From Tardiphaga sp. P9-11 (lineage in GTDB: Bacteria; Pseudomonadota; Alphaproteobacteria; Rhizobiales; Xanthobacteraceae), in assembly GCF_008329525.1 (NCBI RefSeq), contig NZ_NPKQ01000003.1, positions 1 to 64,000 on the forward strand: a stretch of DNA of 64,000 nucleotides, given 5' to 3'. Shown here piece after piece: positions 37,897 through 58,056 of the stretch (positions are counted from its first letter, which is position 1; the number at the start of each line of letters is the position of its first letter). A program made the translations under genes and the position numbers. The notes under the pieces are model-generated. The model worked only from the letters and a program-made list of their open reading frames with translations, was not told the DNA's origin and made no database searches.

Positions 37897-38697
37897 TCAG
37901 GACGCCTTGGCCGTCTTGTTCTTCGAATTGCGCTGGAAGAACAGCGCCTGGCTGGCAACGGCCGAGACCATCGCGGGCTGGAACGGCTTCGAGATCAGGA
38001 AGGCCGGCTCCGGACGTTCGCCAGTCAGGAAGCGCTCCGGATAGGCGGTGATAAAGACCACCGGCACTTCGAAAATGCGCAACAGCTCATTGACCGCGTC
38101 GAGACCCGAGCTGCCATCGGCGAGCTGAATATCCGCGAGAATAAGCCCGGGCTTCTTGTTCTTGGCGAGCGCCACAGCATCCGCGTGAGTGCGTGCCACA
38201 CCGATGACGTTATGACCGAGATTCTTCACGAGACTTTCGAGGTCCATCGCGATGAAGGTCTCGTCCTCAATGATGAGAACGTCCGTGGCGATCTCGGCGG
38301 CCATTTCTCGGCCGGCCGTGTCGGCCAGCGTACGCACTTCCGCCACATCAGCGTCGAGGACGAAGGCGACTTCCTCTTCCGAGAAGCCTTCGAGCGACAG
38401 CAGCAGGAATGCTTGCCGCGGCAGCGGGGTGATGTTGGAAATGCGCTTCTCGGACGCAGCCTGCAACGGCGCCACATCCGGATTGTCGTTCAGCGCGACC
38501 GAATTCCAAATCTGGGTAAAAAGGCGAAACAGGCCGGCACGGGGTCCATGCTGCTCGTCTAGAAGCGACTGGTCCTGCAGCAGCGCTTCCAGCATGGCGC
38601 CCACATAGGCGTCGCCCGAGGCTTGGTTACCCGTGAGGGCACGGGCATAGCGCCGCAACAGCGGTAAGTGTTCAGCTACGAGCTGTGATCGGGACAT
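37897..38697 (-). CDS. phyR: General stress response anti-anti-sigma regulator PhyR
   Basis: PhyR (266 residues) joins an N-terminal sigma-like domain (LVAEHLPLLRRYARALTGNQ onward) to a C-terminal receiver domain. When phosphorylated at Asp189 (in ILADIQLADG) the sigma-like half captures NepR and frees EcfG. The receiver has the acidic pocket DVLIIEDE, the threonine in VVFITAY and the lysine in FLISKPF. ATG 38697 has GGAG five bases upstream. It is divergent from nepR-ecfG with GGAAC-type promoters. No histidine kinase is nearby. Confidence 0.95.
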   Translation of the reverse strand: MSRSQLVAEHLPLLRRYARALTGNQASGDAYVGAMLEALLQDQSLLDEQHGPRAGLFRLFTQIWNSVALNDNPDVAPLQAASEKRISNITPLPRQAFLLLSLEGFSEEEVAFVLDADVAEVRTLADTAGREMAAEIATDVLIIEDETFIAMDLESLVKNLGHNVIGVARTHADAVALAKNKKPGLILADIQLADGSSGLDAVNELLRIFEVPVVFITAYPERFLTGERPEPAFLISKPFQPAMVSAVASQALFFQRNSKNKTAKAS

Positions 38698-38770
38698 CCC
38701 CACTCCATCCTGTTCGAAGTCAAAGTCGAAGGGTACCCGAATACAACCCGGCTCCCTCGATATGCGTGAT

Positions 38771-38795
38771 TACGCCCCAGCCGGACAAAAGTTCC
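38771..38795 (-). promoter_or_regulatory. Candidate EcfG-dependent promoter of phyR
   Basis: On the minus strand GGAAC (38795-38791) is followed after 16 bases by CGTA (38774-38771), close to the alphaproteobacterial stress consensus GGAAC-N16/17-CGTT. It lies about 75 bases upstream of the phyR ATG, indicating that EcfG feeds back on phyR. Confidence 0.7.
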
Positions 38796-38803
38796 ATCTG
38801 ATC

Positions 38804-38828
38804 GGAACTTTCGGCGGCTCTCTGCATT
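38804..38828 (+). promoter_or_regulatory. Candidate EcfG-dependent promoter of nepR-ecfG
   Basis: GGAAC (38804-38808), 16-base spacer, then CATT (38825-38828), matching the -35 exactly and the -10 less well. The -35 boxes of this and the divergent phyR promoter form GTTCC-N8-GGAAC, so the two promoters start back to back from the same short segment. Confidence 0.6.
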
Positions 38829-38907
38829 AGATCGCCAACAGACGCCGCAAAGGCTTCAAAAATCAAGAAAATTTCTCAAATTCCAGGGGGCGTATCTTCT
38901 GGGGAAT

Positions 38908-39117
38908 GTGGAACGGGTCATGAAAGATGTGAAGCCAAAGGGCGGATTAAACGCCGAAATCCAGTCACGGATCGGGCATCAGTTGCGCGCCATGTACGAC
39001 GATGTCGTGCGACAGGGCGTCCCGGATCGATTTGCGGAGCTGATCCGCAAGCTGGACGGGGCTGAGGCTCAAGCCCAGATCGCTGGCGATCCTGGCAAAA
39101 ATGAAGGAGGGGAATAA
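38908..39117 (+). CDS. nepR: Anti-sigma factor NepR
   Basis: Small anti-sigma factor (69 residues from GTG 38908, 65 from ATG 38920) that holds EcfG until phosphorylated PhyR displaces it. The conserved core is IQSRIGHQLRAMYDDVVRQG followed by VPDRFAELIRKLD. The start is ambiguous: GGGGAAT precedes the GTG, while the ATG has only a weak site. Its stop overlaps the ecfG ATG by one base (TAATG), ensuring coupled synthesis of anti-sigma and sigma factor. Confidence 0.92.
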   Translation: MERVMKDVKPKGGLNAEIQSRIGHQLRAMYDDVVRQGVPDRFAELIRKLDGAEAQAQIAGDPGKNEGGE

Positions 39118-39665
39118 TGCCTCTCACAGACTCACTCCGCGACGACATTCTGGCGTCGGTGCCTAGTCTGCGCGCCTTCGCGATCTCGCTCTCCGGCAAC
39201 GGCGACCGTGCCGATGACCTCGTCCAGGAAACGCTGTTGCGCGCCCTCGCCAATATCGACTCTTTCCAGGTCGGCTCGAATCTGCCTGCGTGGTTGTTCA
39301 CCATTCTACGCAATCTGTTCCGCTCGGACTATCGCAAGCGGCGGCGCGAGGTTGAGGATGCCGATGGCAGCTATGCCAAGACTCTGAAGACCCAGCCGGC
39401 GCAGAACGCCCATCTGGAGTTCGAGGAGTTTCGCGCGGCGCTCGAAAAGCTTCCGCAGGATCAGCGCGAAGCCCTTATTCTGGTCGGCGCCTCCGGCTTC
39501 TCCTACGAAGACGCCGCCACGATCTGCGGCTGCGCCGTCGGTACCATCAAGAGCCGCGTGAACCGCGCGCGTTCGAAGCTCAGTGCCCTGCTTTATGTTG
39601 ATGGCGCGGAAGACTTCGGTCCGGACGATACCGTCCGGGCAGTCATCGGCGGATCGGGCGGTTAG
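39117..39665 (+). CDS. ecfG: Extracytoplasmic function sigma factor EcfG (SigT type)
   Basis: Sigma factor of the alphaproteobacterial general stress response, 182 residues. Region 2 covers LVQETLLRALANIDSF and the promoter-melting part PAWLFTILRNLFRSDYRKRRRE; region 4 has LPQDQREALILVGASGFSYEDAATICG and the recognition helix CAVGTIKSRVNRARSKL. GAAGGAGGGG precedes ATG 39117. A terminator follows at 39692. Confidence 0.94.
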   Translation: MPLTDSLRDDILASVPSLRAFAISLSGNGDRADDLVQETLLRALANIDSFQVGSNLPAWLFTILRNLFRSDYRKRRREVEDADGSYAKTLKTQPAQNAHLEFEEFRAALEKLPQDQREALILVGASGFSYEDAATICGCAVGTIKSRVNRARSKLSALLYVDGAEDFGPDDTVRAVIGGSGG

Positions 39666-39691
39666 GTCGATCCGACAATTGACGCAAGACA

Positions 39692-39719
39692 AGCGGTCAC
39701 TTCGGTGGCCGCTTTTTTT
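39692..39719 (+). terminator. ecfG terminator
   Basis: AGCGGTCAC-TTCG-GTGGCCGCT: nine-base-pair stem with one G-T wobble, stable TTCG tetraloop, followed by a run of seven T. It lies about 25 bases after the ecfG stop. Confidence 0.9.
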
Positions 39720-39898
39720 GTGCGAATTGGTATGACCGTGTCAGCAGCGCGCCGACTTCTTCCCGCAACCGGGCGAAGGAACCGCCACCATCTTTCCGCC
39801 ACACAGAAAGTGCCCCTCGCGCTCACATCGCGGGGGATTTTTATTGATGCACATGCCATCAACGCCTCGCGACTGATGACTGCGAGGACCAATCCGGA

Positions 39899-41122
39899 AT
39901 GCCCGCCTTTCGACCACGAACCATCTCGCTTGCCGCCGCATTGAGCCTCGCTTGCGCTGGCCATGCCTTCGCGCAAAAGCAATACGATCCCGGCGCATCC
40001 GACACCGAGATCAAGATCGGCAACATCATGCCCTATAGCGGGCCGGCTTCGGCCTATGGCATCGCGGGCATCATCGAGGCCGCCTATTTCCGCATGATCA
40101 ACGATCAGGGCGGCATCAACGGCCGCAAGATCAACTTCATCAGCTATGATGACGCCTATAATCCGTCCAAAGCCGTAGAACAAGCGCGCAAGCTGGTGGA
40201 ATCGGACGAGGTGCTGGTGATCTTCAATCCGCTGGGCACGCCGTCGAATGCAGCGATCCAGAAATATCTCAACATCAAAAAGGTGCCACAGCTGTTCGTC
40301 GCAGCCGGCGCGACCTATTTTGGCAACCACCGGGCTTTCCCATGGACCATGGCGTGGCAGCCGCCTTATGAGAGCGAAGGCCGCATCTATGCGAAATATC
40401 TGCTGACGGAAAAACCCAACGCGAAGATCGCTGTGCTCTATCAGAATGACGATCTCGGCAAGGACGTGCTGAAGGGTTTGAAGGACGGGCTCGGCGACAA
40501 GGCTGCGGCGATGCTGGTCGCCGCAGAGAGCTATGAGGTGACCGAGCCGATCGTCGACAGCCACATCATCAACCTGAAGGCCTCAGGCGCCGACACCTTC
40601 ATCAGCGTTACCACGCCGAAGTCAGCGGTACAGAGTATCCGCAAGGTCTCTGAACTCGGCTGGAAGCCGCTCTACATCCAGGGCTATGCCAGCGCATCGA
40701 TCAGTTCGGTGCTGAAACCTGCGGGACAGGAGATCTCGCAAGGTATCCTGTCGGCTTACTACGCCAAAGACGGCTCCGACCCGCAGTGGGACAATGACCC
40801 CGGCATGCAGCGCTTCTACGCGTTCCTCGCCAAATACGCACCCGACGCCCGCCGCAACGATATCTCCGTGGTCTATGGTTACGGTACCGCCCAGACCATG
40901 GTGCAGGTGCTGCAACAGGCCGGCGACAACCTGACTCGCGAAAACATCATGAAACAGGCGGCAAGCCTGAAGGATTTCGCGCCGGACACGATGCTGCCGG
41001 GCGTCAAGCTCAATACCTCCGCCACCGATTTTTATCCGATCGAACAGCTGCAGATGATGCGCTTCAAGGGTGACAAATGGGAGCTGTTCGGCCCGGTGAT
41101 CTCGGGCGAGATCAGCCGCTGA
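39899..41122 (+). CDS. ABC substrate-binding protein, tandem paralog 1
   Basis: Branched-chain-type periplasmic binding protein (407 residues) with signal peptide ending at HAFAQ near residue 25 and the array-wide mature start YDPGASDTEIKIGNIMPYSG. It is the most divergent of the five paralogs: IIEAAYFRMI, YLNIKKVPQLFVAAGAT and a C-terminus without the CGDDLTRA cysteine of the others (it has QQAGDNLTRE). ATG 39899 has a modest GAGGA upstream. A strong terminator follows at 41162, so it is a single-gene unit. No permease is nearby. The family binds aromatic acids, amino acids or fatty acids; the ligand is unknown. Confidence 0.87.
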   Translation: MPAFRPRTISLAAALSLACAGHAFAQKQYDPGASDTEIKIGNIMPYSGPASAYGIAGIIEAAYFRMINDQGGINGRKINFISYDDAYNPSKAVEQARKLVESDEVLVIFNPLGTPSNAAIQKYLNIKKVPQLFVAAGATYFGNHRAFPWTMAWQPPYESEGRIYAKYLLTEKPNAKIAVLYQNDDLGKDVLKGLKDGLGDKAAAMLVAAESYEVTEPIVDSHIINLKASGADTFISVTTPKSAVQSIRKVSELGWKPLYIQGYASASISSVLKPAGQEISQGILSAYYAKDGSDPQWDNDPGMQRFYAFLAKYAPDARRNDISVVYGYGTAQTMVQVLQQAGDNLTRENIMKQAASLKDFAPDTMLPGVKLNTSATDFYPIEQLQMMRFKGDKWELFGPVISGEISR

Positions 41123-41161
41123 ATTATGCCGGCAGGCGGCATATCCATTGCCCAATAAAGC

Positions 41162-41194
41162 AGCCCTTCGCGGTGTTATCGCGAAGGGCTTTTT
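41162..41194 (+). terminator. Terminator after paralog 1
   Basis: AGCCCTTCGCG (41162-41172) pairs perfectly with CGCGAAGGGCT (41180-41190) around a 7-base loop and is followed by TTTTTG. Confidence 0.9.
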
Positions 41195-41283
41195 GTTGCC
41201 GCATACACGCGAACGGTGTTCAATCCGGCCGGAGCCGCAAAGGCCCGTAAAACAAGACGAATAAAAATCAGGGGAGTTCTGAA

Positions 41284-42516
41284 ATGCCTTCGATTCCATC
41301 GCGTGCACTGGCTTTGTCGGTTGCCGCGGCCTTCAGCATCGCCGCCTCGGGCAGCGCGCTGGCCCAGAAGAGATATGATCCCGGCGCCACAGACACCGAA
41401 ATCAAGATCGGCAACATCATGCCGTATAGCGGCCCTGCCTCGTCCTACGGACTGATCGGCAAGACCGAAGCCGCCTATTTCAACATGATCAACGATCAAG
41501 GCGGCATCAACGGCCGCAAGATCAACTTCATCAGCTATGACGACGGCTATTCGCCGCCCAAGGCGGTGGAGCAGGTGCGCAAGCTGGTGGAGTCCGACGA
41601 AGTCCTCGTCGTGTTCAACTCGCTAGGTACACCGTCAAACACGGCATTCCAGAAGTATCTCAACGCCAAGAAAGTACCGCAGCTCTTCGTTGCCACCGGC
41701 GCCAGCAAGTGGAACGATCCGAAGCACTTTCCCTGGACCATGGGCTGGCAGCCCAGCTATCAGGTCGAAGCACAGATCTATGCCAAATACCTGATGAAGG
41801 AGAAGCCCGACGCCAAGATCGCGGTGCTTTACCAGAACGACGACTTCGGCAAGGACTATCAGAAAGGGTTTCGTGAGGCGCTCGGCACCAAGGCCTCGAT
41901 GATCGTCACCGAAGAGAGCTACGAGATCTCCGAACCGACGGTGGATTCCCACATCGTCAAGATCAAGTCGCTGAACCCGGACGTGGTGGTATCCTTCGTT
42001 ACGCCGAAGATTGCCGCCCAGACGATCCGCAAGATCGGCGAACTTGGCTGGAAGCCGCTTCATCTGGTCAGCAATGTCAGCATCTCGGTCGGCGCGGTCC
42101 TGCAGCCGGCAGGCTTCGATAATGCCCAGGGCGTGTTGTCCGCCGATTATCGCAAGGATGGCCTTGACCCGCAGTGGAAGGACGATCCCGGCATGAAGAA
42201 GTGGGCGGCCTTCGTCGACAAATACATGCCCGGCTCCGATCGCTCCGACAACAGCCTGTTGTACGGCTACGGGGCGGCACAGACGCTGGTGAAGGTGCTG
42301 CAGATGTGCGGCGATGACCTCACCCGCGCCAATGTGATGAAACAGGCCGCAAGCCTGAAGGACTTCGTGCCCGACACGCTACTGCCCGGCATTACCCTCA
42401 ATACCTCGGCCACAGACTACGCCCCGATCGCGCAATTGCGCATGATCCACTTCAAGGGCGACAAGTGGGAACTGTTCGGCGATGTGATCAGCGCCGATAC
42501 ACCTACGCCGGAATAG
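41284..42516 (+). CDS. ABC substrate-binding protein, tandem paralog 2
   Basis: Peripla_BP_6 protein of 410 residues, signal peptide ending at SALAQ near residue 28, mature start RYDPGATDTEIKIGNIMPYSG. The ligand-binding region includes SYDDGYSPPKAVEQVRKLVE and VATGASKWNDPKHFPWTMGW; FREALGTKASMIV distinguishes it from its neighbours. GGGGAG lies upstream of ATG 41284. It is followed by its own terminator at 42555. Confidence 0.88.
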   Translation: MPSIPSRALALSVAAAFSIAASGSALAQKRYDPGATDTEIKIGNIMPYSGPASSYGLIGKTEAAYFNMINDQGGINGRKINFISYDDGYSPPKAVEQVRKLVESDEVLVVFNSLGTPSNTAFQKYLNAKKVPQLFVATGASKWNDPKHFPWTMGWQPSYQVEAQIYAKYLMKEKPDAKIAVLYQNDDFGKDYQKGFREALGTKASMIVTEESYEISEPTVDSHIVKIKSLNPDVVVSFVTPKIAAQTIRKIGELGWKPLHLVSNVSISVGAVLQPAGFDNAQGVLSADYRKDGLDPQWKDDPGMKKWAAFVDKYMPGSDRSDNSLLYGYGAAQTLVKVLQMCGDDLTRANVMKQAASLKDFVPDTLLPGITLNTSATDYAPIAQLRMIHFKGDKWELFGDVISADTPTPE

Positions 42517-42554
42517 TGCCGCGGCATTTCGCATTGCACCACTGAAGCAACAGA

Positions 42555-42584
42555 GCTCCTGCGATTTAGTCGCAGGGGCCTTTT
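42555..42584 (+). terminator. Terminator after paralog 2
   Basis: GCTCCTGCGA (42555-42564) and TCGCAGGGGC (42570-42579) form a 10-bp stem with one T-G pair and a 5-base loop, followed by CTTTTCTT. Confidence 0.82.
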
Positions 42585-42621
42585 CTTGTGGTCGGCCTGT
42601 GAGGGGTATTCAATGCAGTCA

Positions 42622-42637
42622 GGAGTCGCAGAACTCC
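42622..42637 (+). ncRNA. 5' leader hairpin of paralog 3
   Basis: GGAGT-CGCAGA-ACTCC, a 5-bp stem with the loop CGCAGA, in the short leader 35 bases upstream of ATG 42672 and preceded by GGTATTCAAT. The paralog 4 leader has the same loop and a compensated stem pair (GGAGC...GCTCC). It may be an RNA element in the leader or a DNA operator; function is inferred only from conservation. Confidence 0.4.
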
Positions 42638-42671
42638 AAAAAAACTTGGGAAGAAACGATCACGGAGATCA

Positions 42672-43904
42672 ATGATGCTCGCACGATCCATGCGGCTGGC
42701 TGCACTGCCCGCTGCCCTGGCCCTCTTGGCCGCCAGTGCAGCCGGCGCCCTCGCCCAGAAAAGATACGACACTGGCGCCACAGATACCGAAATCAAGATC
42801 GGCAACATGATTCCGTATAGCGGACCTGCCTCGGCCTATGGCGTGATCGGGAAGACGGAGACCGCCTATTTCAATATGATCAATGAGCAGGGCGGCATCA
42901 ACGGACGCAAGATCAACTACATTTCCTATGACGACGCCTATTCGCCACCGAAAGCCGTCGAGCAAGTGCGCAAGTTGGTCGAGTCAGATGAAGTCCTTGC
43001 GGTGTTCAACCCGCTCGGCACGCCCTCCAATACGGCGATCCAGAAATATCTCAACGGCAAGAAGGTCCCGCAGCTGTTCGTCGCCACCGGCGCCACCAAG
43101 TGGAACGACGCGAAAAACTTCCCCTGGACCATAGGTTGGCAACCCAGCTACCAGAGCGAAGCTCAGATCTATGCCAAATGGCTGATGAAGGAGAAGCCCA
43201 ACGCAAGGATCGGCGTTCTTTACCAGAACGATGATTTCGGCAAGGACTATCTCAAAGGCCTCAAGGATGGCTTGGGTGCGAAGGGTTCGATGATCATCAT
43301 CGAGGACAGCTATGAGATCGCGGAGCCGACCATCGACACCCATATCGTCAAGCTGAAGTCCGCTAATCCCGACGTGCTGATCATCTTCGCCACGCCGAAG
43401 TTTGCCGCACAGACCATCAAGAAAACGGCCGAGCTCGGCTGGAAACCACTGCAGATCCTCGCCAATGTCAGCGTCTCCGTCGGCGCGGTGATGCAGCCCG
43501 CGGGATTCGACAATGCGCAGGGTGTATTGTCGGCCTCTTACACCAAGGACGGCACCGACGTTCAGTGGAAGGACGATCCGGGTATGAAGAAATGGGCGAC
43601 GTTCCTCGACAAATACATGCCCGACGCCAACCGCTCCGACAGCAGCCTCGTTTACGGATACGGCGTGGCGCAGACGCTGGTGAAGGTGCTGCAGATGTGC
43701 GGCGACGACCTTACGCGCGCCAATCTGATGAAGCAGGCTGCGAGCCTGAAGGACTTTACGCCGGACACGCTGCTGCCCGGCATTACGATCAGCACCTCGG
43801 CCACCGATTTCGCGCCTATCTCGCAACTGCAGATGCAACGCTTCACCGGCAACAAGTGGGAGCGCTTCGGCGAGATCATCAGCGGGGACGTCGCGACACA
43901 ATAG
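42672..43904 (+). CDS. ABC substrate-binding protein, tandem paralog 3
   Basis: Peripla_BP_6 protein of 410 residues with signal peptide ending AGALAQ near residue 29 and mature start RYDTGATDTEIKIGNMIPYSG. Close to paralog 2 over its whole length (for example QMCGDDLTRANLMKQAASLKDF) but distinct in the hinge and cleft (YLKGLKDGLGAKGSM, TKDGTDVQWKDDPG). GGAG lies upstream of two adjacent ATGs, 42672 and 42675. A terminator follows at 43952. Confidence 0.88.
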   Translation: MMLARSMRLAALPAALALLAASAAGALAQKRYDTGATDTEIKIGNMIPYSGPASAYGVIGKTETAYFNMINEQGGINGRKINYISYDDAYSPPKAVEQVRKLVESDEVLAVFNPLGTPSNTAIQKYLNGKKVPQLFVATGATKWNDAKNFPWTIGWQPSYQSEAQIYAKWLMKEKPNARIGVLYQNDDFGKDYLKGLKDGLGAKGSMIIIEDSYEIAEPTIDTHIVKLKSANPDVLIIFATPKFAAQTIKKTAELGWKPLQILANVSVSVGAVMQPAGFDNAQGVLSASYTKDGTDVQWKDDPGMKKWATFLDKYMPDANRSDSSLVYGYGVAQTLVKVLQMCGDDLTRANLMKQAASLKDFTPDTLLPGITISTSATDFAPISQLQMQRFTGNKWERFGEIISGDVATQ

Positions 43905-43951
43905 CTTTGCTGCGCCAACAGCTCTGCTGCATCAGCGAACACGAATATACC

Positions 43952-43981
43952 GCCCTCGCGAGCATGTCGCGGGGGCTTTTT
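43952..43981 (+). terminator. Terminator after paralog 3
   Basis: GCCCTCGCGA (43952-43961) and TCGCGGGGGC (43967-43976) form a 10-bp stem with one T-G pair, followed by TTTTT. Confidence 0.9.
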
Positions 43982-44018
43982 CTTGCTGCGACCTTCACAC
44001 GGGTGTTGAATATCCTCA

Positions 44019-44034
44019 GGAGCCGCAGAGCTCC
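44019..44034 (+). ncRNA. 5' leader hairpin of paralog 4
   Basis: GGAGC-CGCAGA-GCTCC with the same CGCAGA loop as the paralog 3 leader and a compensated closing pair. It is preceded by GGTGTTGAAT and an outer TTGAAT/ATTCAA pair (44006-44011 and 44036-44041) that could extend the structure. It is 45 bases upstream of ATG 44080. Confidence 0.4.
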
Positions 44035-44079
44035 GATTCAAAAAATGTAACACATCACAATTGATCAGGGAGATCAGAA

Positions 44080-45309
44080 ATGCCCGCAATGCATCTGCGT
44101 CTGGCCGCGTTTCCGGCTATCTTGGGTTTACTTGCCGCCTCCGCAACCGGCGCGCTCGCGCAGAAAAAATATGATCCCGGCGCGACCGATACAGAAATCA
44201 AGATCGGCAATATCATGCCCTATAGTGGACCGGCCTCCGCTTACGGCGTCATCGGCAAGACCGAAGAGGCCTATTTCAAGAAGATCAACGCCGAAGGCGG
44301 CATCAACGGCCGCAAGATCAATTTCATCAGCTATGACGATGCCTATTCACCGCCGAAAACAGTGGAGCAGGCGCGCAAGCTGGTGGAGTCTGATGAGGTC
44401 CTGCTGGTCTTCAACCCGCTAGGCACGCCGCCGAATTCAGCGATCCACAAATACATGAACAGCAAGAAGGTGCCGCAACTGTTCGTCGCTACCGGCGCCA
44501 CCAAGTGGAACGATCCGAAGGACTTCCCCTGGACCATGGGCTGGCAGCCTAGCTACCAGAGCGAAACCCAGATCTATGCGAAATATTTGTTGAAGGAGAA
44601 GCCGAACTCGAAGATCGCAGTGCTCTATCAGAACGACGATTACGGCAAGGACTATCTCAAAGGACTCAAGGACGGCCTCGGCGCCAAGGCAGCCTCGATG
44701 ATCGTGATCGAGGACAGCTATGAAACTTCCGAGCCGACCATCGACAGCCATATCGTGAAGCTGAAGGCGACCAATGCCGACGTCTTCATCAACATCACCA
44801 CGCCGAAATTCGCCGCGCAGGCGATCAAGAAAATCGCCGAGGTCGGCTGGAAACCGCTGCACTTCCTCAACAACGTGTCCGCTTCCGTCGGCAGCGTGAT
44901 GAAGCCCGCCGGTTTCGAGAACGGCCAGGACATTGTCTCGGCCGCCTACGCCAAGGATGTGTCTGACCCGCAATGGAAGGACGACGAAGGCATGAAGACG
45001 TTTCTTGCATTCATGACCAAGGACTTCCCGGACGGCAACAAGCTCGACAACAATGTTATCGTCGGCTACGGCGCGGCACAGACGCTGGTGAAAGTACTGC
45101 AGATGTGCGGCGATAATCTTACCCGCGAAAACGTCATGAAGCAGGCCGCCAGCCTGAAGGACTATCGCACCGAGATCCTGCTGCCGGGCATCAAGATCAA
45201 CACATCCGCCACGGATTTCGCGCCGATCAGCCAGCTGCAGCTGCAGCGTTTCAAGGGTGAGAAGTGGGAATTGTTCGGCGACATCATTAGCGCTGATGTC
45301 GGCGGCTAG
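44080..45309 (+). CDS. ABC substrate-binding protein, tandem paralog 4
   Basis: Peripla_BP_6 protein of 409 residues; signal peptide ends TGALAQ near residue 28, mature start KYDPGATDTEIKIGNIMPYSG. Differs from its neighbours in YFKKINAEGG, SAIHKYMNSKKVPQ and a C-terminal lobe FLAFMTKDFPDGNKLDNNV. GGGAG lies eight bases before ATG 44080. A perfect 13-bp hairpin follows at 45341. Confidence 0.88.
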   Translation: MPAMHLRLAAFPAILGLLAASATGALAQKKYDPGATDTEIKIGNIMPYSGPASAYGVIGKTEEAYFKKINAEGGINGRKINFISYDDAYSPPKTVEQARKLVESDEVLLVFNPLGTPPNSAIHKYMNSKKVPQLFVATGATKWNDPKDFPWTMGWQPSYQSETQIYAKYLLKEKPNSKIAVLYQNDDYGKDYLKGLKDGLGAKAASMIVIEDSYETSEPTIDSHIVKLKATNADVFINITTPKFAAQAIKKIAEVGWKPLHFLNNVSASVGSVMKPAGFENGQDIVSAAYAKDVSDPQWKDDEGMKTFLAFMTKDFPDGNKLDNNVIVGYGAAQTLVKVLQMCGDNLTRENVMKQAASLKDYRTEILLPGIKINTSATDFAPISQLQLQRFKGEKWELFGDIISADVGG

Positions 45310-45340
45310 CCACCCACATTCCACGAAACGGAAAATGCGT

Positions 45341-45381
45341 GAGGCCTGCGTCAGACGTGACGCAGGCCTCACTGCGTTTTT
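45341..45381 (+). terminator. Terminator after paralog 4
   Basis: GAGGCCTGCGTCA (45341-45353) pairs perfectly with TGACGCAGGCCTC (45358-45370) across a 4-base loop. A TTTTT run begins six bases later. Confidence 0.78.
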
Positions 45382-45428
45382 CGGCTCTTTCCATTTGAGC
45401 CACTGAGCAATCGCGGTATGATTATCTC

Positions 45429-45447
45429 GCAGGCGCACAAGGCCTGC
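45429..45447 (+). ncRNA. 5' leader hairpin of paralog 5
   Basis: GCAGGC-N7-GCCTGC, a 6-bp stem at the same relative place as the hairpins before paralogs 3 and 4 and also preceded by GGTAT. The loop GCACAAG only resembles CGCAGA, so equivalence is tentative. Confidence 0.3.
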
Positions 45448-45490
45448 AGAACAAGAAAATCATGCCTTGCACGCAAGGGAAGGAACTCAA

Positions 45491-46732
45491 ATGTCTGCCA
45501 CGACCGCGCGGCTGTTGTCGCTCTCGGCCGCCGCCATGTTGCTCGCCGCCTCCAACTCCACCGTTCTCGCCCAGAAGAAATATGACACCGGCGCCAGCGA
45601 CACCGAAATCAAGCTCGGCAACATCGTGCCCTATAGCGGACCGGCCTCGGCCTATGGTGCCGTCGGCAAGGCGCAGGCCGGCTATTTCAAGATGATCAAC
45701 GACAAAGGCGGCATCAACGGCCGCATGATCAACTACATCTCCTATGACGACGCCTATTCGCCACCGAAGGCTGTCGAGCAGACCCGCAAACTCGTTGAAT
45801 CCGACGAAGTGCTGTTGATGTTCTCGGCATTGGGCACACCGTCCAACACCGCGATCCAGAAATATCTCAACGCCAAGAAGGTGCCGCAGCTCTTCCTGGC
45901 CACCGGCGCCACGAAGTGGGCCGATCCGAAGAATTTTCCGTGGACCATGGGCTGGCTGCCCAGCTACCAGAGCGAAGGCCGCATCTATGCCAAGTACCTG
46001 CTGAAGGAAAAGGCCGGTGCTAAGATTGGTGTGCTCTATCAGAACGACGACTTCGGCAAGGACTACCTGAAGGGCGTCAAGGACGGCCTCGGCGAGAAGG
46101 CTTCGTCCATCGTCATCGAGGAGAGCTATGAGCTCACCGAACCCACCGTGGACTCCCACATCGTCAAGATGAAGTCGCTCAATCCCGACGTAGTCGTCAT
46201 TTTCGCGACGCCCAAGTTTGCCGCGCAGACCATCAAGAAGATTGCCGAGCTGGGCTGGAAGCCTACCATGATCGTGCCGGGAGTCAGCGTCTCGATCGGT
46301 CAGGTGCTGCGTCCCGCAGGCTTCGAGAACGCGCAGGGCTTGCTCTCCGCGCACTACTCCAAGGACGCCACCGACCCGCAGTGGAAGGACGATCCAGGCA
46401 TCAAGGCCTATCGCGAATTCCTCGCCAAATACGTGCCGGACGGCAACCCGTCGGATTCGTCGCTGATGTCCGGCTACAATATCGCCGAGACTATGGCGAT
46501 CTTGCTCAAGCAGTGCGGTGACGACCTCACCCGCGCCAACGTGATGAAGCAGGCGGCGAACCTGAAGGACGTCCAGCAGTCGACACTGCTGCCGGGCGTC
46601 AAGGTCAACACCTCGCCGACCGATTTCTCGCCGATCGAGCAGATGCAGCTGATGCGCTTCGAAGGCGAGAACTGGAAACTGTTCGGCGACGTGCTGACGG
46701 GTGAACTCGGCACGGGCGGCAGCGGCGGTTAA
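45491..46732 (+). CDS. ABC substrate-binding protein, tandem paralog 5
   Basis: Peripla_BP_6 protein of 413 residues with signal peptide ending STVLAQ near residue 28, mature start KYDTGASDTEIKLGNIVPYSG, and an added glycine-rich C-terminal tail (GTGGSGG). Distinct features are AVGKAQAGYFKMINDKGG and ILLKQCGDDLTRANVMKQAANLKDV. GGGAAGGAA precedes ATG 45491; an upstream in-frame ATG at 45467 lacks such a site. The array ends here; a palindromic repeat at 46745 follows. Confidence 0.88.
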   Translation: MSATTARLLSLSAAAMLLAASNSTVLAQKKYDTGASDTEIKLGNIVPYSGPASAYGAVGKAQAGYFKMINDKGGINGRMINYISYDDAYSPPKAVEQTRKLVESDEVLLMFSALGTPSNTAIQKYLNAKKVPQLFLATGATKWADPKNFPWTMGWLPSYQSEGRIYAKYLLKEKAGAKIGVLYQNDDFGKDYLKGVKDGLGEKASSIVIEESYELTEPTVDSHIVKMKSLNPDVVVIFATPKFAAQTIKKIAELGWKPTMIVPGVSVSIGQVLRPAGFENAQGLLSAHYSKDATDPQWKDDPGIKAYREFLAKYVPDGNPSDSSLMSGYNIAETMAILLKQCGDDLTRANVMKQAANLKDVQQSTLLPGVKVNTSPTDFSPIEQMQLMRFEGENWKLFGDVLTGELGTGGSGG

Positions 46733-46744
46733 GCGATGCAATTT

Positions 46745-46775
46745 CTTCCCCTCTCCCCTTACGGGAGAGGGGAAG
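46745..46775. repeat. Palindromic intergenic repeat
   Basis: CTTCCCCTCTCCC (46745-46757) and GGGAGAGGGGAAG (46763-46775) form a perfect 13-bp stem with a 5-base loop and no T-run. A related GGGAGAGGG-containing segment occurs at 46861-46870, so the whole 46735-46875 gap looks like a REP-type element as found widely between genes in this bacterial family. Confidence 0.6.
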
Positions 46776-46923
46776 CCCCGGGGGTCCGTTGCTCTCCTCT
46801 CGACCCCGCTTCGCGTGTTCGATCCACCCTCCCCCACATAGCGCAGCTGCGCTGCGCCTAAGGGAGAGGGCAAGAAGGGCAGCCATCTTGCCGTCCCTGC
46901 CATAGAGCGGCATAACCCCGGGC

Positions 46924-48204
46924 ATGACCGATAAACGCCCCCTGCTCCGCGCAATTTTCGATGCCGCAGTTGCTGCGGCCCATCCCGATGTCATCCTTGG
47001 CGCCCACCTGCCGGCGCCGCCGAAGGGCCGCATCATCTGCCTCGCCGCCGGCAAAGGCGCCGCGGCCATGGCCGCCGCCGCCGAGGCGCATTATCTCGAT
47101 ACACTGAAGCTCGATCCCGCGCGCCTGATCGGCATCGCTACCACACGCCATGGCCATGGCGTGCCCACCAGGCGCATCCGTGTAGTCGAGGCCGGCCATC
47201 CCGTGCCCGACGAAGCCGGGCTCAAAGGCGCTGACGACAGTCTCAAGCTCGCGGCAGAGGCCACTGCTGACGACCTCCTGCTGGTGCTGATTTCCGGCGG
47301 CGGCTCGGCCAACTGGACCGCGCCCGTAGCGGGCATCACCTTCCAGCAGAAGCAACAGCTCAACCGCGCGCTGCTGCGCTCCGGCGCCGTCATCGGCGAG
47401 ATCAACACCGTGCGCAAGCACCTCTCGCGCATCAAAGGCGGCCGCCTCGCCCGCGCGGGCCAGAAGGCGGAGATCGTCACGCTGGCGATTTCCGATGTGC
47501 CACATGACGATCCTGCGGTGATCGCGTCAGGACCGACGGTTCCGGATATGACCACGCTGTCTGATGCCCGCGCTATCATTGCAAAATTCAATCTCGCCAT
47601 CGACGATGCTGTCCGCGCCGCGCTCAGCGACGAGGCCAATGAAAGCGTCAAACCGAACGATCCGGCTTTCGCGCGCGCGCGTTTCGAGCTGATCGCACGC
47701 CCGCGGGAGTCACTCGATGCCGCGATCAAGGTAGCGAAGGATGCCGGCTACGAGATCATCGATCTCGGCGCCGATCTCGAAGGCGAAGCCCGCGATGTCG
47801 CCGCCGACCACGCGAAGCTCGCATTGAAAGCCAAAGCCGATGGCAAGAAGCTGGCGATCCTATCGGGTGGGGAGCTGACGGTCACGGTCGTTGGCACTGG
47901 CCGCGGCGGCCCGAACCAGGAATATGCGCTGGCGCTGGTCGAGGCGTTCAAGGACACGACGGGGATCGTTGCACTCGCAGGCGACACTGACGGCGCCGAT
48001 GGCGGCGCCGGCAGCGCCAGCGATCCCGCCGGTGCAATCGTGGACGCGCGCACATTCGAGGCGATGCGTGCGCAGAAGCTGGATGCGAAGGCGACGCTGG
48101 CGAATAACGACGCAACGACGTTCTTCACGGCGACGGGCGATCTACTGCAGACCGGGCCGACGCTGACCAATGTGAACGATGTCAGGGTAATTCTGGTGGG
48201 TTGA
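46924..48204 (+). CDS. Glycerate 2-kinase (MOFRL family)
   Basis: Kinase of 426 residues that converts D-glycerate to 2-phosphoglycerate (the GckA/TtuD family), feeding tartrate, glyoxylate or serine-cycle products into glycolysis. The N-terminal DUF4147 part has AAGKGAAAMAAAAE near residue 42, the LLLVLISGGGSA motif near residue 118 and INTVRKHLSRIKGGRLA; the C-terminal MOFRL domain has LSGGELTVTVVGTGRGGPNQE and GDTDGADGG. It stands alone between the binding-protein array and a palindromic repeat. Confidence 0.9.
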   Translation: MTDKRPLLRAIFDAAVAAAHPDVILGAHLPAPPKGRIICLAAGKGAAAMAAAAEAHYLDTLKLDPARLIGIATTRHGHGVPTRRIRVVEAGHPVPDEAGLKGADDSLKLAAEATADDLLLVLISGGGSANWTAPVAGITFQQKQQLNRALLRSGAVIGEINTVRKHLSRIKGGRLARAGQKAEIVTLAISDVPHDDPAVIASGPTVPDMTTLSDARAIIAKFNLAIDDAVRAALSDEANESVKPNDPAFARARFELIARPRESLDAAIKVAKDAGYEIIDLGADLEGEARDVAADHAKLALKAKADGKKLAILSGGELTVTVVGTGRGGPNQEYALALVEAFKDTTGIVALAGDTDGADGGAGSASDPAGAIVDARTFEAMRAQKLDAKATLANNDATTFFTATGDLLQTGPTLTNVNDVRVILVG

Positions 48205-48209
48205 TCACA

Positions 48210-48360
48210 AGCTGTCATTCCGGGGCGCGAAGGCCACTTGGCGGTCGCGAACCTCAGCAACTCCACTTGGAGTGGCGGGGAATCCAGTAGTGCCATATCA
48301 TACCGGGCTTCCGGGCTCGCGCTCTCGGCAATGCCGAGATCGCGCCCCGGAATGACAGCT
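48210..48360. repeat. Intergenic palindromic repeat with 20-bp perfect ends
   Basis: AGCTGTCATTCCGGGGCGCG (48210-48229) is the exact inverted complement of 48341-48360. The 111 bases between contain further short palindromes. A shorter relative of the same ends lies at 61416-61552. The right end supplies the last two bases of the stop codon of the MarR gene at 48359. No open frame is inside, so it is a non-autonomous element of MITE or REP type. Confidence 0.8.
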
Positions 48361-48865
48361 AAAACTCCCGGGCGATCTTCGCCATCATCCCCAGCAGCGC
48401 CTTGTGATCCGCAGGACCCAGCACCTCGATCAAACGTGCTTCATGCCGCGTCGCAACCAGCTTCTTGGCGCGGGTCAGCGTGGCGCGGCCTTTGTCGGTG
48501 AGCATCAGCACATGGGAGCGGCGGTCGCTCGGTGAGCGCATCCGCGTCAGCAAGTCGCGGCTTTCCAGCGCGTCGAGCAGCGAGACGAAATTCGGACGGA
48601 GGATGCCGAGCGTGTTGGCGATCTCGGTCTGGTTGCGGCCGGGGTTTTTGTCCAGCAGCAGCAGCACCGAGAACTGCGCGGGTGTCAGCTGCAGCGGCGC
48701 CATGCAGCGCAGGAAGTCCTCAAACACCTTCAACTGCGCACGTTTCAGCGAATAGCCCAGCAGTTCGGAGAGTTCGCCGAGCTGCAGCGCACAGCCCTCC
48801 TCGTCGAACCCACCGGGCGCGACTTGCTTGGCTTGATACTGGGACGTCGTCTTTGAAACAGTCAT
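48359..48865 (-). CDS. couR: MarR-family regulator, probable CouR
   Basis: MarR regulator of 168 residues with the winged helix NQTEIANTLGILRPNFVSLLDALESRDLL and wing RMRSPSDRRSHVLMLTDKGR. Divergent from a liv-type importer and part of a phenylpropanoid cluster whose order matches the R. palustris cou locus as I recall it, where CouR represses and p-coumaroyl-CoA releases it. A candidate motif is found at 48931-48960 and stronger copies at 58880 and 62660. Its TAG stop runs into the palindromic repeat. The name CouR rests on context. Confidence 0.8.
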   Translation of the reverse strand: MTVSKTTSQYQAKQVAPGGFDEEGCALQLGELSELLGYSLKRAQLKVFEDFLRCMAPLQLTPAQFSVLLLLDKNPGRNQTEIANTLGILRPNFVSLLDALESRDLLTRMRSPSDRRSHVLMLTDKGRATLTRAKKLVATRHEARLIEVLGPADHKALLGMMAKIAREF

Positions 48866-48960: not shown

Positions 48961-49049
48961 CAAATAGACGGCGGGTTTCAACCGCCATTGTTGATTGTCC
49001 TGCGCCTGTGGTATCCGCGGCGCCAGACAGTGCGGGGGAGCGTCCGGCT

Positions 49050-50090
49050 TTGAATACAACGATCTTGCTGTTCCTTTTGCAGGACGGCATCACCAACGGC
49101 GCGATCTATGCGCTGCTTGGGCTGGCCCTTGTGCTGGTCTTTGCGGTGACGCGCGTCATCCTGATCCCGCAGGGCGAATTCATCACCTTCGGCGCGCTGA
49201 CCTATGCCAGTCTCTCGGCCGGCCAGATGCCGGGCACAATCAAGCTGGCCGTCGCCATGGGCGTCGTCGCCTTCGCCTTCGATCTCTTCACCTTCCGCAA
49301 GGCGTTGCATGCCAGGCGCGTACTGCGCTCCGTGGCTGTCAATATCGTCTTCCCGCTGGCGATCTGGGGCGTGATGTGGGCGCTGGGTGGACGGCCGGGG
49401 AATATCGCCCTCAACATCGTGCTGTCGTTGCTGATCGTTGCCGCCATCGGCCTTTATCTCTATCGCATCGCGTTCCAGCCAATCGCCCACACCTCGGTGC
49501 TGGTGCTGCTGATCGCGTCGGTCGGCTGCCATCTGGCGTTGCAGGGTTTCGGCCTCGTCTTCTTCGGGGCTGAAGGCCAGCGGGGACCTGCGATCTCGTC
49601 TGACGCCATCACCATCGGCGCATTACGCTTCACCGGCCAGAGCATCGCCGTCTATGGCATCACCATCGCGCTGATCATCGGCCTCTGGCTGTTCTTCGGC
49701 TATACGCTCTATGGCAAGGCGCTGCGCGCCACGGCGGTGAACCGCCTCGGTGCCCGTCTCGTCGGCATCCGCACGTCGCTGTCGGGCCAGATCGCGTTCC
49801 TGCTGGCCTCGGTCATCGGCGCAATCTCGGGCATCCTGATCGTGCCGATCACCACGCTCTATTACGACACCGGCTTCCTGATCGGCCTGAAGGGCTTCAT
49901 CGCTGCCATCATCGGCGGCCTCGTCAGCTATCCGCTCACCGCCACCGCAGCGATCCTGGTCGGCTGCGTCGAGGCGTTCTCGTCGTTCTATGCAAGCAAC
50001 TACAAGGAAGTCATCGTCTTCACACTGATCCTTCCGGTGCTGGTGCTGCGTTCGCTCGCCGCCCCCGCCGTCGAAGAAGAGAAGGATTGA
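49050..50090 (+). CDS. LivH-type ABC permease of the aromatic-acid importer
   Basis: Permease of 346 residues starting LLFLLQDGITNGAIYALLGLALVLVF and followed by VTRVILIPQGEFITFGALTY, a LivH variant with an insertion of about 60 residues (AVAMGVVAFAFDLFTFRK to LYLYRIAF). I chose TTG 49050 because GGGGGAG lies nine bases upstream; GTG 49008 in frame would add 14 residues. By position it corresponds to a membrane component of the CouPSTU-type p-coumarate importer. Confidence 0.85.
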   Translation: MNTTILLFLLQDGITNGAIYALLGLALVLVFAVTRVILIPQGEFITFGALTYASLSAGQMPGTIKLAVAMGVVAFAFDLFTFRKALHARRVLRSVAVNIVFPLAIWGVMWALGGRPGNIALNIVLSLLIVAAIGLYLYRIAFQPIAHTSVLVLLIASVGCHLALQGFGLVFFGAEGQRGPAISSDAITIGALRFTGQSIAVYGITIALIIGLWLFFGYTLYGKALRATAVNRLGARLVGIRTSLSGQIAFLLASVIGAISGILIVPITTLYYDTGFLIGLKGFIAAIIGGLVSYPLTATAAILVGCVEAFSSFYASNYKEVIVFTLILPVLVLRSLAAPAVEEEKD

Positions 50091-50095
50091 GCGCC

Positions 50096-51868
50096 ATGAC
50101 GTCGCGTATCCTTCCCATTCTCGTCTTCGCGCTGGTGATGGCCGCAATCCCGTTCATACCGGGCGTGCCGCCGTTCTGGATCGTGCTCTTGGACAATATC
50201 GGCCTCGCCGCACTCGTCGCCATGGGCCTCGTGCTGCTCACTGGTGTCGGCGGTCTGACCTCGTTCGGCCAGGCGGCGTTCTGCGGCTTCGGCGCTTATA
50301 CGACCGCCTATCTGACGACCGCCTACGGCATGTCACCGTGGCTGACGCTGCCAATGTCGCTGATCGTCTCGGGCCTCGCTGCGGTGTTCCTCGGCATCAT
50401 CACCATGCGCCTGTCGGGCCATTATCTGCCGCTCGGTACTATCGCCTGGGGCATCAGTCTCTTCTATCTATTCAGTAAGCTCGAATTCCTCGGCCGTAAC
50501 GACGGTATCTCGGGCATTCCACCGCTGTCGATCGGCAGTTGGAAGATGCTCGATCCGGGCTCGATCTATTTCGTGATCTGGATCGCGGTCATCGTCTGCG
50601 CGCTGCTGTCCATGAACCTGCTGGACTCTCGTACCGGTCGTGCCATCCGCGCGCTGCGTCGCGGCCACGTCGCTGCTGAAGCATTCGGCGTGCAGACTGC
50701 GCGCGCGAAGCTGATGGTCTTCATCTACGCCGCCGTGCTCGCCGGTCTGTCCGGCTGGCTCTATGCGCATTTCCAGCGCGCCGCGAACCCGACGCCATTC
50801 GGGCCGCATCTCGGCATCGAATATCTGTTCATCGCAGTAGTCGGCGGTGCCGGTTATGTCTGGGGCGGCGTCCTCGGCGCGGCCGTGGTCGTGATCCTGA
50901 AGGAAGTGCTGCAGAGCTATCTGCCGCTGATCTTCGGCGGCGGCGGCCAGCTCGAAACCATCGTATTCGGCATCCTGCTCGTTGCGCTGCTGCAGCTAGC
51001 GCCGACCGGCATGTGGCCGTGGCTGACGGCATGGCTACCGGCCGGCGACAGCCGCAGGCGCCCGGCGCCGGCCGATGCTCTCCCTGCCCGCAGCGGCAGC
51101 CATCCCGACACCGGCGTATTGTTGCAGATAGAGAAGGCCCGCAAGCAGTTCGGCGGCGTCATTGCCGTCAATGACGTGTCGTTCACTGTGCAAGCGCGCG
51201 AGATCGTGGCGCTGATCGGCCCCAACGGCGCCGGCAAGAGCACGACATTCAATCTCATCACCGGCGTGCTGACTGCGACCGCCGGCAAGGTCGCGGTCCT
51301 CGGCAAGAGCGTCTCTGGCGCGCCGCCGCAGGAGATCGTCAAGCTCGGCATTGCCCGTACCTTCCAGCATGTGAAGCTGGTACCCGATATGACCGTGCTG
51401 GAAAACGTCGCTCTCGGCGCGCATCTGCGCGGACGTTCGGGCGCCATCGCCAGCATGCTGAGGCTTGACCGCGCCGACGAAGCGAAGCTGCTCGCGGAAG
51501 CCGCCAAGCAGATCGAACGTGTCGGTCTTGGCGACCAGATGAACCAGCTCGCAGGCAGCCTGTCGCTTGGCCAGCAGCGCATCGTCGAGATCGCGCGCGC
51601 ACTCTGCGTCGATCCGATGTTGCTGCTGCTGGATGAACCTGCCGCCGGCCTGCGCCATATGGAGAAGCAGCAGCTCGCATCGCTGCTGCGGCAGTTACGC
51701 GATGGCGGCATGTCGGTGCTGCTGGTCGAACACGATATGGGCTTCGTGATGAAGCTCGCCAACCGCATCGTGGTGCTCGATTTCGGGACCAAGATCGCCG
51801 AGGGCACGCCGGCCGACATCAAGACCAACCCCGACGTCATCAAGGCCTATCTGGGAGTGGTGGCATGA
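50096..51868 (+). CDS. Fused LivM permease and LivG ATPase
   Basis: Single 590-residue protein joining a LivM permease (residues 1 to about 310, [20 protein letters not shown] and the loop [15 protein letters not shown]) to a LivG ATPase (from about 340, Walker [10 protein letters not shown], signature LSLGQQRI, Walker [11 protein letters not shown]) through a proline/arginine-rich linker. Such fusions occur in liv-type systems for aromatic acids. ATG 50096 follows AAGGA. The gene overlaps the next ATPase by four bases. Confidence 0.9.
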
Positions 51869-52608
51869 AGGCTCAAAACAGCGCGTTGTTGCAAGTCACC
51901 GACGCACATGTCGCTTATGGCAAGGTCGAGGCCGTGCGCGCGGTCAATCTCGAAGTCCGCACCGACGAGATCGTCACCATCATCGGCGCCAACGGCGCCG
52001 GCAAGACCACATTGCTCAATGCCGTGATGGGCATCCTGCCGCTGAAAGGCGGCGTAAGCTTTGCCGGGCAGGACGTCTCCAGGATCGACATCGAGGACCG
52101 CGTCGCCGCGGGCTTGAGCCTCGTCCCCGAGCATCGCGAATTATTCGCTACGATGAATGTGGAAGACAATCTGTTGCTCGGCGCGTTCCGCATCGACAAG
52201 GCTACGGCCGCTCGTTCGTTCGAGCACGTCTACAATTTGTTTCCGCGCCTCAAGGAGCGTCGCGAGCAGCTCGCTGGCACGCTCTCCGGCGGCGAACAGC
52301 AGATGCTCGCCATGGGCCGCGCGCTGATGGGCGCGCCGAAACTTCTGATGCTCGACGAGCCGAGCCTCGGCCTGGCCCCGATCATCGTCGCCGACATTTT
52401 CCGCATCGTCAGCGAACTGAAAGCCGCCGGCGTCTCGGTGCTGCTGGTCGAGCAGAATGCGCAGGCCGCATTGAAGATCGCCGACCGCGCTTATGTGATG
52501 GAACTCGGCGAATTCATCCTGGATGGCGCCGCCAGCGACATCGCCAGCAACCAGCGCGTGGTTGCGAGCTATCTCGGGTTTCAGCACGAGGGTGAGAGCG
52601 CGATCTGA
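51865..52608 (+). CDS. LivF-type ABC ATP-binding protein of the aromatic-acid importer
   Basis: ATPase of 247 residues with Walker A GANGAGKTT, signature LSGGEQQM and Walker B LMLDEPSLGL. ATGA overlap with the fused permease-ATPase. It completes the membrane and ATPase parts of the importer; the binding proteins are encoded just downstream on the other strand (52677 and 54027). A bidirectional terminator follows. Confidence 0.9.
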   Translation: MKAQNSALLQVTDAHVAYGKVEAVRAVNLEVRTDEIVTIIGANGAGKTTLLNAVMGILPLKGGVSFAGQDVSRIDIEDRVAAGLSLVPEHRELFATMNVEDNLLLGAFRIDKATAARSFEHVYNLFPRLKERREQLAGTLSGGEQQMLAMGRALMGAPKLLMLDEPSLGLAPIIVADIFRIVSELKAAGVSVLLVEQNAQAALKIADRAYVMELGEFILDGAASDIASNQRVVASYLGFQHEGESAI

Positions 52609-53825: not shown

Positions 53826-53931
53826 GTGGTTTGTTTCTCTGAACTCTTGTGACTGCGAACTGCGCCGACAGCAGCGGCATTGCCGACCATCGTTGCGCAG
53901 GTTGTGACCGCACGAAGGCTCGCGCAGCACG

Positions 53932-53963
53932 AAAAAACCGGCCTCTGGGCAGAGGCCGGTTTT
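53932..53963 (-). terminator. Terminator between the two binding-protein copies
   Basis: AAAACCGGCCTCT (53934-53946) pairs perfectly with AGAGGCCGGTTTT (53951-53963), loop GGGC. On the minus strand the stem ends in TTTTTT, so it terminates transcripts of the upstream copy at 54027; the copy at 52677 then needs its own promoter. Confidence 0.85.
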
Positions 53964-54026
53964 GGTATCGGAAAATGCCGGGGAAGCAAAGGGCACGAAA
54001 TGCCCAGGATCCCCGTCAGAAGCGCA

Positions 54027-55175: not shown

Positions 55176-55250
55176 GGGTCTCTCCCTCCAGGTTATTTTT
55201 ATGTGTCAGCTAAATCAAAGTTCGGCTGGCTTATCAGCCCCTTCTTTAGG

Positions 55251-55287
55251 TCAGTGCGCCCGTACCGGTAAAGGGCTGGCGCACTGA
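55251..55287 (-). terminator. Stem-loop between SDR and binding-protein copy 2
   Basis: TCAGTGCGCC (55251-55260) and GGCGCACTGA (55278-55287) form a perfect 10-bp stem with a 17-base loop. No T-run follows on the minus strand, so partial termination or mRNA processing is more likely than full termination. Confidence 0.45.
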
Positions 55288-55302
55288 TCGTTTGCCGCAG
55301 GC

Positions 55303-56064: not shown

Positions 56065-56113
56065 AGTGTCCTCCCGTACTTCGATTTCTTTGCCCCTCGC
56101 TGGCGGCTTTCAA

Positions 56114-57997: not shown

Positions 57998-58056
57998 TGG
58001 TCCCACCCTATGTGTTTCGTCCTGGTGTTCTTGTTATTTTTGTTTGTCGTCGTCGT

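Follow-up and report, generated by a model that had tools for sequence, protein, structure and literature searches.

A five-gene receptor array in Tardiphaga sp. P9-11 as the probable detached part of the receptor set of one distant Liv-type importer

The 64,000-nt stretch of the Tardiphaga sp. P9-11 genome analysed here (the window) carries an array of five tandem genes, P1 to P5, all on the plus strand and all with intact open reading frames (ORFs), each recognised by its ORF and a profile match:

39899 to 41122, plus strand: P1, solute-binding protein, 407 amino acids
41284 to 42516, plus strand: P2, solute-binding protein, 410 amino acids
42672 to 43904, plus strand: P3, solute-binding protein, 410 amino acids
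44080 to 45309, plus strand: P4, solute-binding protein, 409 amino acids
45491 to 46732, plus strand: P5, solute-binding protein, 413 amino acids

For P5 the mechanically called ORF opens at a TTG codon at 45467, and the ATG at 45491 is preceded by a good ribosome-binding site (RBS). All five products matched PF13458 (Peripla_BP_6) above the cut-off, with E-values of 3e-54 to 4e-59, share 62-79% pairwise identity and begin with a signal-peptide-like stretch followed by a common mature start, YD[PT]GA[ST]DTEIK, as an earlier note on this DNA had described for five paralogs with the same mature N-terminus. The AlphaFold model of P1 had a predicted local distance difference test score (pLDDT) of 89.3 and a template-modelling (TM) score of 0.7 to HAAT structures. 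P1 to P5 are HAAT-type periplasmic binding proteins with the two-lobe type I fold.

The genome as a whole contains 73 PF13458 and 76 PF02653 (permease) matches, and many of its binding-protein genes have no permease nearby, such genes being usually left as orphans. The array belongs to a clade of 17 receptors with at least 47% identity to P4, the next matches reaching at most 35%. Besides the five array genes, this clade comprises two receptors, S1 and S2, located behind livG-livF-livH-livM on another contig (C3), and ten receptors scattered over eight places, each at least 14 kb from any PF02653 permease gene. S1 and S2 are the only ones of the 17 located immediately behind permease genes. 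Distance from a permease is also found outside the clade, where 13 of 54 PF13458 genes lie more than 10 kb from a PF02653 gene (the count covered the 54 non-clade and 17 clade genes and left out two weak PF13458 matches). S1 begins 6 nt past livM and probably belongs to the livGFHM operon, and P1 is nearest to the transporter-linked receptor S2, with 73% identity. AMP-ligase and ECH/3HCDH genes lie beside the C3 livGFHM on the opposite strand, as pimA and pimF would. The genome search that the earlier note had proposed for a matching permease set thus led to a candidate translocator represented by one C3-type LivH against 17 clade receptors. Across 18 genomes of the genus, this LivH occurs once in 16, twice in G001 and not in G011 (77% complete), and the receptor clade has 8-17 members per genome. 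In G001, the livM adjoining the array reads as two frames (L040:4337-5367), and a second livGFHM of the C3 type (LivH 92%) has a distant receptor (54%) nearby (L059:3181-6616).

As regards the scattered receptors, one is adjoined by two sulfatase-like genes and a GntR gene (L033:3308-8369), one by AMP-ligase, AraC and acyl-CoA dehydrogenase genes (L035:1277-6572) and one by a GGDEF-EAL gene (L034:7754-11581); another has a polyhydroxybutyrate-depolymerase-like gene nearby (L032:8120-15130).

The link between array and transporter is visible in the relatives. In 11 of the 15 same-genus genomes examined, out of 17 (G010 and G011 were left out), livGFHM stands directly upstream of receptors that represent subsets of the seven positions S1, S2 and P1 to P5, with a maximum of six in one cluster. 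A two-place arrangement, with livGFHM-S1-S2 in one location and ecfG-P1 to P5-glyK-MarR in the other, is found in G003, G004, G015, G017 and the present genome (G000). The order pimA/pimF-like genes, livGFHM, receptors, glyK and MarR gene, as seen in 80 named loci, recurs through Bradyrhizobium, Afipia and Rhodopseudomonas, including loci labelled as an R. palustris metagenome-assembled genome (L114) and R. rhenobacensis (L116). In 74 of these 80 loci, one or more clade receptors lie within 10 kb; one receptor was counted in 16, two in 13, three in 25, four in 13, five in 5 and six in 2, several loci ending at contig ends. In more distant alphaproteobacteria, such as Hoeflea, Thalassobaculum, Sneathiella and Camelimonas, one to three receptors accompany the transporter. 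Among 119 genomes of the family, 50 carry both LivH (E ≤1e-90) and receptor (E ≤1e-150) and 65 carry neither (Fisher p 1.5e-28, uncorrected for kinship). There is good support for receptors that serve one or a few transporters located elsewhere, from the C3 livGFHM, its contiguity with the receptors in relatives and this co-occurrence. P1 of G008 (L049:5532-7144) and the receptors of the fragmentary G009 (L050:1238-5320) have broken or overlapping frames, either from decay or from assembly error.

The place where the cluster was cut can be located just ahead of P1, between two features:

39691 to 39714, plus strand: terminator-like hairpin of ecfG, flanking the rearrangement breakpoint on the left
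39785 to 39842, plus strand: scar, remnant of the spacer behind S2, containing a terminator-like hairpin at 39814-39836

The scar aligns with the S2-P1 spacer of G001 at 86% over 58 nt (E 1.3e-10), and window positions 38875-39718 align with G001 4903000-4903846 at 84%; the breakpoint therefore falls between about 39718 and 39785. By this alignment, the hairpin ahead of P1 is the leftover terminator of the departed receptor S2. In G001, ecfG and livH have the same orientation, ecfG being 68 kb upstream, and G001 4904011-4968500 is colinear with G015 5099758-5035539, a region 3.1 Mb away from the array of G015. The moved block, including livGFHM and the S receptors, measures about 70 kb. We also considered a simple inversion swapping the junctions S2|P1 and ecfG|x1, x1 being the gene now behind S2; ecfG and x1 are, however, more than 280 kb apart in G001, G008 and G016, the three unsplit genomes in which both were found. 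Since a simple inversion is unsupported and block relocation fits the colinearity, relocation of the whole block is favoured. Of seven unsplit genomes searched, three (G001, G007 and G016) have ecfG 64-70 kb upstream of a co-oriented livH, and the ancestral ecfG neighbourhood therefore rests on these three; in G002, G005, G008 and G014, ecfG is elsewhere or on another contig. The gene order in other genera points to the split as the derived state. Judged by these comparisons, the missing neighbour permease is the result of a lineage-specific rearrangement and not a design feature.

In order to compare the receptors themselves, we built a phylogeny of 98 rows, in which six short ORFs of L049 and L050 were left out. 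Each of the seven positions forms one clade across species with support of 93-100, P5 only jointly with one broken ORF (L049:5532), a long branch at the base of its clade. Same-position genes thus group across species and not within genomes, which answers the phylogeny that the earlier note had called for. A gene-conversion cassette array with silent copies was rejected on this grouping and on the intactness of all five genes. With dN/dS (the ratio of non-synonymous to synonymous substitution rates) of 0.035-0.146 against orthologues in G015 and G001, all seven positions are under purifying selection. Within this pattern, P2 and P4 of the present genome group with other species (support 99 and 98), and P1 and P5 with the sister genomes (98 and 92). 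Protein identity to the sister genomes is only 86-90% for P2, P3 and P4 (window 41284-45309), against 94-97% for P1, P5 and glyK and 100% for EcfG. The low identity of P2 to P4 together with the grouping of P2 and P4 suggests recombination within the array. The fourth position of G002 and G005 holds a different receptor with its own clade (support 100) and 69-70% identity to P4 (L041:9191-10498 and L046:4139-5374).

A comparison of 380 alignment columns over the seven groups gave 176 columns with one common majority residue and 53 group-specific columns, differing between groups and largely fixed within them. It omitted L041:9191 and L046:4139 (below 76% identity), L049:5532, all of L050, ORFs shorter than 380 amino acids, dispersed paralogues and four rows lacking the start motif (P2 of L043, L045 and L058; P1 of L048). 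Among the group-specific columns, 188, 238-240 and 262-265 correspond in the alignment to Tyr150, the Tyr202 region and Glu226, residues of leucine-binding protein with roles in ligand binding, and columns 115, 116, 139 and 140, aligned to its carboxylate anchor, are conserved. Such a pattern would be compatible with one common carboxylate anchor and tails that differ.

The spacers between the array genes contain a recurrent set of elements:

41162 to 41190, plus strand: terminator-like hairpin after P1
41196 to 41224, plus strand: promoter-like pair TTGCCG-N17-TTCAAT before P2
42555 to 42579, plus strand: terminator-like hairpin after P2
42586 to 42614, plus strand: promoter-like pair TTGTGG-N17-TTCAAT before P3, with an inverted repeat at 42620-42637
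43952 to 43976, plus strand: terminator-like hairpin after P3
43983 to 44011, plus strand: promoter-like pair TTGCTG-N17-TTGAAT before P4, with an inverted repeat at 44017-44034
45339 to 45372, plus strand: terminator-like hairpin after P4
45395 to 45422, plus strand: promoter-like pair TTGAGC-N16-TATGAT before P5, of a different type

The hairpins that had been noticed behind the first four paralogs are present at all four and exceed the shuffle expectation: the two strands of window 38500-48500 together contain 24 terminator-like sites, compared with 10.0 (standard deviation 3.1) in shuffles. No hairpin was found behind P5 in this genome. In the 120-nt 3′ flanks of array genes and relatives, a hairpin occurs in 184 of 290 cases versus 56 of 1450 shuffled flanks, which rules out a chance origin. 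In these flank counts and the junction counts below, G005 and G014 entered twice (as L091 and L142), as did the livGFHM side of G017 (L090). An Rfam search of 38500-48500 gave no match at E up to 1, and the hairpins therefore fall in no listed RNA family. Consensus folds of the four spacers from P1-P2 to P4-P5 have two-sided changes at 4, 0, 2 and 8 pairs, a few of them outside the main hairpin. Genus alignments show, in this order along the P1-P2, P2-P3 and P3-P4 spacers (147-176 nt), the hairpin, in most rows a TTG-N17-TTSAAT pair, a GGAGCCGCAGAGCTCC-type inverted repeat, which is weaker in P1-P2, and the RBS. The repeat occurs twice in the window at up to 3 mismatches, with 0.10 occurrences expected. 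Hairpin and TTG-N17-TTSAAT pair are also present in the S1-S2 spacer of this genome. Of 154 receptor-receptor junctions, 77 have the pair (genus set: 36 of 55) versus a shuffle mean of 0.35; when spacings of N16-18 are allowed, the number rises to 101 versus 1.1. Such counts are inflated by the relatedness of the junctions. From these conserved terminator and promoter-like modules, separate transcription of the receptors in the cell is likely. Since S2, P2, P3 and P4 share one promoter type, the modules speak for separate units and not for five different controls; of the proposal that each receptor is separately controlled, the part on separate transcripts is favoured and the part on different regulation is not.

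On the right side of the array lie its ancestral neighbours and, beyond them, a second transporter:

46924 to 48204, plus strand: glycerate-kinase-like gene glyK (DUF4147/MOFRL), ancestral right neighbour of the array
48359 to 48865, minus strand: MarR-family regulator, ancestral right neighbour of the array
49008 to 52608, plus strand: second Liv transporter, probably not the partner of the array

The second set consists of livH (49008-50090), a fused livM-livG (50087-51868) and livF (51865-52608). The absence of an ATPase or permease thus holds for the array, and for its vicinity only in the narrow sense, because this complete Liv set begins 2.3 kb downstream. In the region 52677-58851, two tandem receptors with 80% identity face the second Liv set, and short-chain dehydrogenase/reductase, AMP-ligase and enoyl-CoA hydratase genes adjoin. 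On the left, in the split lineage, the array is directly preceded by the general-stress regulator genes phyR and ecfG (window 37897-39665). EcfG control of P1 was considered and rejected, as inspection by eye of the ecfG-P1 interval found no GGAAC-N16/17-CGTT pair, the EcfG promoter motif.

Taken together, we consider it probable that the array belongs to the receptor set of a single branched-chain-type (HAAT) ATP-binding cassette (ABC) importer, the livGFHM of contig C3, on which it would act in trans in the uptake of fatty and dicarboxylic acids. Several observations weigh against this. Six of the 80 named loci have no clade receptor, several of these ending at contig ends, and four of the 119 family genomes break the co-occurrence, two with LivH only (G055 and G065) and two with the receptor only (G084 and G128). 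The TTG-N17-TTSAAT element is not shared by P1 or P5 and is missing from half of the 154 junctions. By a strict count, group-specific residues are not over-represented in the pocket: of the ten leucine-binding-protein contact columns that could be mapped, two (188 and 265) are group-specific versus 1.4 expected, so that the pocket argument is only suggestive. The ligand class is favoured by the AMP-ligase and ECH/3HCDH genes beside livGFHM and by the fatty-acid ABC binding protein 4n03, which took third place in the profile ranking and sixth in the fold ranking of solved structures; the structures nearest in fold, however, include binders of aromatic acids, amino acids and fatty acids, and fold therefore does not fix the ligand. 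It is also favoured by the pim-linked cluster of R. palustris, where two of the three receptors bind fatty and dicarboxylic acids, although RPA3725 bound no ligand in the published screen, according to passages of Giuliani et al. (2011; PMC3223731); the passages of PMC12844201 on RPA3725 contain no ligand information. The likeness to this cluster is one of locus layout and not of sequence alignment, CGA009 not being among the 80 named loci. The ligand diversification once proposed for the array has indirect support, from the position clades, the group-specific residues at some pocket-equivalent columns and the binding data on the R. palustris cluster.

We weighed four other explanations against this trans-acting receptor set. 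It is unlikely, though deserving some weight, that the array gives one long message in which the hairpins act as partial terminators or stabilisers tuning receptor amounts. Stem-loops behind binding-protein genes do so in cellulolytic clostridia, in the part of PMC9045158 that describes them, and the gaps in the promoter-like pair, at P1 and in half of the junctions, would agree with it; the conservation of the pair behind the hairpin in the other junctions, far above the shuffle mean, opposes it. A mere dosage effect, with paralogues binding the same acids with the same affinity and only raising the amount of receptor, would be compatible with their 62-79% identity and the 176 columns common to all groups. 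We regard it as quite unlikely in view of the position-specific clades maintained over the genus, the 53 group-specific columns and the different binding profiles of RPA3723 and RPA3724.

The second Liv transporter as the partner, in place of the C3 set, is suggested by its distance of only 2.3 kb and by its presence behind glyK-MarR in many Bradyrhizobium and Afipia loci as well. However, it is flanked by its own pair of binding-protein genes (52677-55175), only distantly related to the array, and in the 17 named loci where LivH identity is below 80%, a clade receptor is present in 13 and the second Liv set visible in none, some of these loci ending at contig ends; this partnership is improbable. 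Finally, some receptors could be sensors, partners of signalling proteins and not of transport, given that dispersed clade members adjoin regulatory genes (GGDEF-EAL, GntR, LysR and AraC). The synteny of P1 to P5 with the transporter is nevertheless maintained in relatives, and the neighbours examined include neither a sensor kinase nor a chemoreceptor, which makes such a role highly improbable.

In relatives, the cluster comprises pimA/pimF-like genes, livGFHM, receptors drawn from S1-S2-P1-P2-P3-P4-P5, glyK and the MarR gene. In the lineage of the window, a block of about 70 kb ending at S2 was relocated, leaving P1 to P5 behind, now following ecfG. Under the importer reading, S2 and P2 to P5 would be self-contained cassettes of promoter-like element, gene and mostly terminator, and each receptor would probably bind a different subset of carboxylic acids, most likely medium- and long-chain fatty and dicarboxylic acids, all handing their ligand to the same LivHM. 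The discordant groupings of P2/P4 and P1/P5 in this genome and the different fourth receptor of G002 and G005 raise the more tentative possibility of a modular library: through homologous recombination, strains would gain, lose and swap promoter-receptor-terminator cassettes that occupy up to seven positions. If so, cassette turnover would alter the substrate range of one conserved importer, the library working even in trans. For the receptors of this array, the comparison of relatives supplies a likely partner, the separating rearrangement and a likely ligand class, and enables a direct test of how far added receptors widen one ABC importer and whether it matters that they lie next to it.

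The searches made, confined to open-licence literature, brought up no publication describing the longer array or its splitting; importers with several receptors are already known, and the system is best read as the receptor set, enlarged and now divided, of a pim-type acid importer. The nearest parallel, in the passages of PMC3223731 that describe it, is the RPA3723/RPA3724/RPA3725 cluster from the same bacterial family, where related COG0683-type receptors are likewise clustered with one Liv-type transporter beside pimFABCDE and where RPA3723 and RPA3724 differ in their fatty- and dicarboxylic-acid profiles. The C3 locus has the same layout, with AMP-ligase and ECH/3HCDH genes, livGFHM, S1 and S2, and P1 to P5 are contiguous with it in 11 of 15 relatives. 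That cluster has three receptors, in contrast to up to six per cluster and seven positions here, and here the cluster is cut in two, with five receptors apart from the transporter. A hairpin just behind a binding-protein gene also occurs in the cellulolytic clostridia, where, as far as the consulted parts of PMC9045158 describe, it sets the receptor:translocator ratio inside an operon, whereas here a promoter-like element and then another receptor gene follow. In Pseudomonas aeruginosa, five paralogous receptors, DppA1-A5, likewise widen the range of one ABC transporter, DppBCDF, although they belong to a different receptor family and bind peptides, according to the relevant passages of PMC4206461 and PMC12728205.

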